45,134 nucleotides of DNA from Actinomycetota bacterium. GTDB lineage: Bacteria > Actinomycetota > Actinomycetes > Nanopelagicales > Nanopelagicaceae. Positions 32,402 through 35,011 of this stretch are shown in pieces; position 1 is the stretch's first letter; each line of letters starts with the position of its first letter. Made by a program: the position numbers and the translations under genes. Location: assembly GCA_947372965.1 (NCBI GenBank), contig CANBVR010000008.1, positions 1 through 45,134 on the forward strand, written 5' to 3'. The notes beneath the pieces were generated by a model. It was not told the origin of the DNA. It saw only the letters and a program-made list of their open reading frames with translations, and did no database searches.

Positions 32402-32671
32402 ATGGCACTACAACCAGCAGAGAAAAAAGAAATCATTGCAAAGTACGGCGCTTCCGCAACTGACACAGGAAGTCCTGAAGCTCAGGTCGCGCTGCTATCA
32501 AAGCGAATTGAAGAATTAACAGAACACCTAAAGGTAAATAAGAATGATCACCACAACCGTCGTGGTCTAATCCTTATGGTTGGTAAGCGTCGTCGCATCC
32601 TGCAATATCTTGCAAAGACAGATGTGACCCGTTACAGAGCGATTATCGAAAAGCTCGGTATTCGTCGTTAA
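32402..32671 (+). CDS. rpsO: 30S ribosomal protein S15
   Basis: [45 protein letters not shown]. Confidence 0.98.
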
Positions 32672-32687
32672 TAATAAATAAATAAAC

Positions 32688-32773
32688 ACTTCCATCAGTT
32701 AAACGCATCCTCGGTAGTGGTTTTCGGTTTTTAACCGCGAACTTCGATCGAAGATTCGCTTGCTGATGGAAGT
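32688..32773 (+). promoter_or_regulatory. rpsO-pnp intergenic stem-loop (putative processing/autoregulatory element)
   Basis: ACTTCCATCAG (32688-32698) pairs CTGATGGAAGT (32763-32773), enclosing CGGTTtttAACCG (32725-32737) and GCGAA-CTTCGATCGAAG-a-TTCGC (32737-32759). Confidence 0.65.
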
Positions 32774-32794
32774 ATTGAAGAAATGGAGCGACCT

Positions 32795-35011
32795 ATGGAA
32801 GGTCAAGATGTGAAAGTAGCCGTTGCAAAAATTGATAACGGAAAATATGGAAAGCGTGAAATTCGCTTCGAAACCGGGCGCCTAGCCCGTCAAGCTGCAG
32901 GAACTGCACTTGTTTATCTAGATGATGATTCAATGTTGCTATCAGCAACAACTGCTTCAAAGCAGCCAAAGGATCAATTCGACTTCTTCCCACTCACCGT
33001 GGATGTTGAAGAGCGCATGTATGCGGCAGGAAAGATTCCAGGATCATTCTTCCGCCGTGAGGGCCGACCTTCAGAAGATGCAATTCTTACCTGTCGTCTA
33101 ATCGACCGCCCACTTCGCCCAGCATTCGTAAAGGGTCTGCGCAATGAAGTTCAGGTTGTCGTAACAGTTATGGCACTAAACCCAGATCACATGTACGACG
33201 TACTTGCGATCAACGCGGCATCAATGTCAACACAACTAGCTGGTCTACCTTTCTCTGGCCCAATTGGCGGCGTTCGCGTTGCTCTTATTGAAGGTCAATG
33301 GGTTGCTTTCCCAAATCACTCAGATTTGGAGAAGGCTGTATTCGATATGGTCGTTGCCGGTTCAATCACTCCAGATGGCAAAGATATTGCAGTCATCATG
33401 GTTGAAGCCGAAGCAACAACTCAAACAATCAATTTGATTAAGGGCGGCGCGCAAGCTCCTACCGAAGAGATCGTTGGCCAAGGACTTGAAGCTGCAAAGC
33501 CATTTATCCGTGCGCTTTGCGATGCTCAAAACGAATTAGCAAAGGTTGCTGCAAAGCCAACTGGCGAATTCCCGGTTTACTTGGATTATCAAGATGATGC
33601 TTATGCTGCTGTTGAAAAGGCTGCAAAGGATGATCTTGCAAAGGCGCTAACAATTGCTGGAAAGCAAGAGCGCGAAACCAAGCTAGATGAGATCAATGCA
33701 GCTGTAAAGCTTGAACTTGCAGCTCAATTTGAAGGCCGCGAAAAGGAAGTTTCTGCAGCGCTTCGTTCTGTAACAAAGAACCTAGTTCGCCAACGTGTAC
33801 TTCGTGACAAGATTCGTATTGATGGTCGCGGTGTTCGCGATATTCGTGCGATTACTTGTGAGGTTGAGGTTATGCCTCGCGTTCACGGTTCATCAATCTT
33901 TGAACGTGGCGAGACTCAAATTCTTGGTGTTACAACTTTGAATATGCTCAAGATGGAGCAGATGCTAGATACGCTAAATCCAGAAACAACAAAGCGTTAC
34001 ATGCACAACTACAACTTCCCACCATATTCTGTTGGCGAAACTGGTCGCGTTGGTTCTCCAAAGCGCCGCGAAATTGGTCACGGTGCTCTTGCAGAGCGCG
34101 CGTTACTTCCAGTTCTTCCAACACGTGAAGAATTCCCATATGCAATTCGTCAGGTTTCTGAAGCACTTGGCTCAAACGGTTCAACCTCAATGGGTTCTGT
34201 TTGCGCATCAACAATGTCGCTCATGAATGCTGGCGTTCCTCTAAAGGCTCCGGTTGCAGGTATTGCAATGGGTCTCATCTCCGACCTAGTCGATGGCAAA
34301 ACAGAATATGTTGCGCTAACAGACATCCTCGGAGCAGAAGATGCATTCGGAGATATGGACTTCAAGGTTGCTGGAACAAAGGATTTTGTTACCGCACTTC
34401 AGCTAGATACAAAGCTTGATGGTATTCCTGCATCAGTTTTGGCATCTGCTTTGCTTCAAGCAAAGGAAGCCCGTCTATTTATTCTTGATCTAATGAACCA
34501 AGCAATTGATGCACCAGATGAGATGAGCCTTCTAGCTCCTCGCATCATTTCAATTAAGGTCCCAACAGATCTAATCGGTGCCATTATCGGACCTAAGGGC
34601 AAGATGATCAACCAAATTCAAGATGATACTGGCGCAGATATCACCATCGAAGATGATGGAACTATCTACATCGGAGCTCTAGAAGGATCACAAGCTGAAG
34701 CTGCGAAGGCAATGATTAATGCAATCGCAAATCCAGTTGTCCCAAAGGTTGGAGAGCGCTTTAACGGAAGCATCGTAAAGCTTGCTACCTTCGGTGCCTT
34801 TATCTCACTCGTTCCAGGTAAAGATGGTTTGCTACACATCTCACAGATTCGCAAGCTACATGGTGGCAAGCGCATTGAAAACCTTGAAGAAGTTATGAAG
34901 GTTGGCGACAAGATTGAAGTTGAAATCGCAGAGATTGATCCAAAGGGCAAGTTCTCTTTGGTTCCAGTTCTTGCTGATGGAACTGTTCCTACTGACGCTA
35001 AATCTGAATAA
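32795..35011 (+). CDS. pnp: Polyribonucleotide nucleotidyltransferase (PNPase)
   Basis: RPASE domains, KH ([32 protein letters not shown]) and S1; [16 protein letters not shown] start at 32795 preferred (ORF track 32783). Confidence 0.97.

Follow-up and report, generated by a model that had tools for sequence, protein, structure and literature searches.

The spacer between rpsO and pnp in the window (the whole stretch of 45,134 nucleotides analysed here) carries a member of Actino-pnp (RF01688), a known cis-regulatory family, since its core scores above that family's curated cut-off. Judged from folding and from the sequences of relatives, the element is predicted to be one long imperfect helix, composed of an outer arm of free sequence, a near-invariant mismatched core and a variable apical hairpin. 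By analogy with Streptomyces, it is likely that this rod is cut by RNase III at its conserved internal loop and that PNPase limits its own mRNA. The features of the locus are as follows:

32402-32671, + strand: rpsO, ribosomal protein S15 (TIGR00952, 121 bits).
32688-32698, + strand: left arm of the outer stem, ACTTCCATCAG, exact complement of the right arm and outside the Rfam model.
32703-32759, + strand: Actino-pnp core, full RF01688 model (1-63), 51.3 bits (cut-off 47.7).
32708-32720, + strand: conserved 5' strand TCCTCGGTAGTGG, near-invariant in 132 distinct loci, with the internal-loop AGU at 32716-32718.
32721-32741, + strand: apical hairpin, variable in sequence and length and covarying in alignment A1.
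32742-32754, + strand: conserved 3' strand CTTCGATCGAAGA, with the internal-loop UCG at 32744-32746; pairs with 32708-32720 in the MFE fold and in the Rfam consensus.
32763-32773, + strand: right arm of the outer stem, CTGATGGAAGT, exact complement of the left arm.
32785-32788, + strand: GGAG, likely ribosome-binding site of pnp, invariant in A1.
32790-32804, + strand: hairpin GACCU-AUGGA-AGGUC, whose loop contains the pnp start codon (from folding, covariation and tree counts).
32795-35011, + strand: pnp, PNPase (TIGR02696, 1333 bits), its start placed by conservation in relatives.

The RF01688 match has an E-value of 1.9e-8 over the whole window and is the sole match above any curated cut-off in an Rfam scan of the window. 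The alignment covers every position of the model, and the MFE fold agrees with its consensus long hairpin. Beside a score above the gathering cut-off, the conserved strands UCCUCGGUAGUGG and CUUCGAUCGAAGA and a position directly 5' of pnp in an actinobacterium identify the element as a family member. Its score is low within the family, relatives reaching up to 71 bits, and the window differs from the model by two non-pairs in the basal helix and by a short AU-rich apical loop. The 63-position model, moreover, ends inside the outer arm, and the start-codon hairpin likewise lies outside it. At a low threshold the scan also returned OrzO-P, PK-PYVV and AdoCbl-II, which fall far under their own cut-offs and were set aside as chance. 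The initial annotation, which did not recognise the family, had proposed a functional analogue of known pnp leaders; control by RNase III and PNPase in the rpsO-pnp spacer is still the best reading and agrees with the Streptomyces work, but the element is not merely an analogue.

Actino-pnp was described in 2010 by Weinberg et al. as a cis-regulatory motif of Actinomycetales (PMC2864571), and RNA-seq studies of Streptomyces lividans and S. avermitilis have reported it 5' of pnp (PMC8079986, PMC8780764). We found it in 133 of the 151 genomes of the window's own family, Nanopelagicaceae; of the 83 with completeness of at least 90% and contamination of at most 5%, 79 carry it. Elsewhere in the phylum most occurrences are in certain families of the same class, including Streptomyces-type genomes, and the nearest named loci are from Actinomycetota, Candidatus Planktophila among them. 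No RF01688 match was obtained in 14 control genomes, one of which was E. coli.

The perfect 11-bp stem reported by the initial annotation between rpsO and pnp is present, its arms lying at 32688-32698 and 32763-32773. The two genes stand in tandem, and the fold of 32660-32800 across their spacer reaches -43 kcal/mol against -28.4 ± 3.5 in shuffles (z = -4.15), with none of 200 dinucleotide shuffles as stable as the native sequence. Only one of 1,500 dinucleotide shuffles gave an 11-bp Watson-Crick helix between the two 60-nt flanks. The arms of relatives differ in sequence and nevertheless pair: locus L012 has GCCTCGCATCA/TGATGCGAGGC, L064 has CAACTCTCTCATTAG opposite CTAATGTGAGAGAGTTG, and Streptomyces-type loci have GGAGAAGCGC/GCGCTTCTCC. 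Left and right flanks were also exchanged between species, separately for three GC classes; in each class the native combinations paired better than the swapped ones (z of -8.4, -8.3 and -7.6), and none of 20,000 permutations per class matched the native pairing. In A1, an alignment of 21 sequences used for covariation, 7 of the 11 outer-stem pairs have changes on both sides, and the covariation score of the whole structure (39 counted pairs) is 0.210, compared with 0.114 when shuffled and 0.02-0.08 when the partners are slid. The initial annotation had named a lack of covariation between the arms as counting against its reading, and they do covary by flank swaps as well as by alignment score. 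By these comparisons, pairing of the outer stem has been kept from the Nanopelagicaceae lineage to Streptomyces while its sequence stayed free.

The minimum-energy fold of 32688-32773, outer arm included, has no branches: it is a rod of -37.4 kcal/mol, in which 32708-32720 pairs with 32742-32754 as in the Rfam consensus. The apical hairpin (helix 4) shows changes on both sides in 5 of its 11 pairs, its columns taking in two core pairs. Three positions of the core are almost never paired in the 132 distinct loci. By model numbering, 8.56 is non-standard in 129 (C.A, U.U, C.C, C.U or U.C), 14.50 in 131 (A.G, G.G, U.C, A.C or A.A), and 16.48 is U.U in all 132. That these mismatches stay mismatched through substitution suggests that they are themselves recognised. 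In one same-genus group (L061, L067-L070, L141, L142, L144, L145, L147 and L149) the core reads GGUUGUGG/CUUCCAUC, with A14.G50 replaced by U14.C50, so that both sides are altered and the mismatch is kept.

In Streptomyces, RNase III cleaves the rpsO-pnp hairpin at an internal loop and affects the pnp mRNA; in an rnc null mutant, PNPase activity rises 2-4-fold and pnp transcripts live longer, and cleavage is described in the same review as yielding PNPase-digestible ends (PMC10126417). Staggered cuts have also been reported in the pnp leader of Propionibacterium acnes (PMC3848588). The Streptomyces-type loci that we folded also form this rod, and their core has the same AGU/UCG loop; we infer that the published [4/4] loop of the Streptomyces hairpin corresponds to the Actino-pnp core. 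By this analogy, the conserved mismatched core with its AGU/UCG loop is the probable RNase III site, and cleavage and feedback of this kind may be expected in the lineage of the window; a literature search on RNA decay in Nanopelagicales returned nothing on point. RNase III would bind the rod and cut the conserved internal loop at about 32716-32719 and 32743-32746, parting the rpsO mRNA from the pnp mRNA. The cut would leave an end open to attack by PNPase, and an excess of the enzyme would therefore shorten the lifetime of its own mRNA.

The core is, however, conserved across 132 distinct loci far more strictly than is usually assumed necessary for an RNase III site. One may therefore ask whether a protein, for instance PNPase through its KH/S1 domains or ribosomal protein S15, uses the core as an operator to block translation of pnp, RNase III cleavage then being secondary or not taking place at all. 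A conserved hairpin holding the start codon just 3' of the rod would suit such an operator. We nevertheless consider it an unlikely reading, for the rod stops 11 nt short of the probable ribosome site and the Streptomyces results indicate cleavage and mRNA stability (PMC10126417).

Cleavage by RNase III with feedback by PNPase also accounts better for the locus than a role in rpsO expression. Since the hairpin begins 17 nt past the rpsO stop codon, it might be merely a 3'-end stabiliser or terminator of rpsO. This is very improbable: no T-run follows the hairpin, no terminator was called on the + strand, conservation reaches into the core and as far as the pnp start, and the family is by definition a pnp leader.

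The initial annotation had further drawn two independent hairpins inside the outer stem, one of them CUUC-GAUC-GAAG, meeting in a three-way junction, to which we give almost no credence. The palindrome CTTCGATCGAAG on which it rested is literally present, and the 4-bp CUUC/GAAG hairpin can form in 110 of the 132 distinct loci, but in the other 22 one or more of its pairs are broken, and forcing it gives -30.9 rather than -37.4 kcal/mol, 6.5 kcal/mol worse, with a pair probability near 0. Since 32742-32754 pairs with 32708-32720, the palindrome belongs to the 3' strand of the rod, where the Rfam consensus likewise pairs it with UCCUCGGUAGUGG.

The start of pnp calls for a small revision. A purine run GGAAG does lie in the right arm (32768-32772), where the initial annotation had remarked on its closeness to pnp, but the likely ribosome site is the conserved GGAG at 32785-32788, 6 nt 5' of the ATG at 32795. 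The right arm is thus unlikely to sequester the ribosome site, because this GGAG lies outside the stem. Overlapping it, the sequence AAATGGAG is conserved in relatives, and in most of them its ATG (window position 32783) does not share the frame of pnp, so the likely start is ATG 32795. The longest-ORF start at 32783 is therefore probably wrong, and the later ATG with its GGAG fits the relatives.

The start codon at 32795 lies in the loop of a 5-bp hairpin. A hairpin of this kind with at least 5 bp occurs in 122 of 154 loci; the loci are not all distinct, and a few of the 122 owe it to a chance helix at a different start codon. The last pair of the stem reads C-G in 59 of 69 rows and U-A in the other 10, and no row is mismatched. 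On a PNPase tree, built quickly without the first 30 residues and with many weakly supported forks, each side of this pair changed four times and the pair also four times, so that the two sides change together. The U-A form requires two changes together, GAG to GAA in codon 2, which is synonymous, and C to U at -1, which is non-coding; this speaks for selection on RNA pairing. Targeted searches of the open literature turned up no published account of such a hairpin at the pnp start in actinobacteria, which speaks weakly for novelty.

In three loci (L126, L127 and L136) the GTG start of pnp lies in a shifted inverted repeat, which reads ACCCA-ATACG-TGGGT in L127 and L136 and is possibly a re-registered start-codon hairpin.

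Taking rod and hairpin together, we tentatively propose, with somewhat less than even confidence, that the pnp leader of this lineage is a two-part device, in which the Actino-pnp rod with its covarying outer arm is joined by a separately selected start-codon hairpin that would add control of translation initiation to the RNase III/PNPase loop.

The pnp leader of E. coli offers a comparison from outside the family: it is a double-stranded leader acted on by RNase III in a PNPase feedback. The element described here would work alike, but has no detectable homology with it. The cut sites themselves differ between the E. coli and Streptomyces leaders (PMC10126417). Closer to the window is the rpsO-pnp hairpin of S. 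coelicolor (PMC10126417, PMC5872136), which occupies the same spacer; Streptomyces-type loci share the rod, outer arm and internal loop with the window. Cutting by RNase III is established for the S. coelicolor hairpin, whereas for the window, known here from sequence, it is expected by analogy. S. coelicolor also terminates rpsO separately and has promoters between the two genes (PMC5872136), whereas in the window promoter-like matches are weak and no + strand terminator was called. The pnp genes examined in Streptomyces-type genomes start with GTG and lack the start-codon hairpin, in contrast to the ATG held in a hairpin loop in the window.

A search of the draft genome that contains the window (G000) yielded no RNase III, which is present in 22 of 24 other genomes of the same genus. 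The syntenic rnc locus falls between two contig ends of G000 (C60:1 and C7:48246). As synteny stops exactly there, an assembly gap is the simplest reason for the absent rnc and is preferred to a true loss of the gene.

The Actino-pnp family was already known, and our additions to it are modest: the conserved pairing of the outer arm, the mismatches preserved in the core, the core as the likely site of RNase III cleavage, and the hairpin at the start codon, which is conserved at pnp and apparently undescribed. The first of these suggests extending the RF01688 model by the outer arm. The work links two records that the consulted passages of the cited papers do not combine, namely the bioinformatic Actino-pnp motif and the RNase III-cut hairpin of Streptomyces. 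If the core is indeed the RNase III site, this would give an exact and testable cut-site prediction across actinobacteria.
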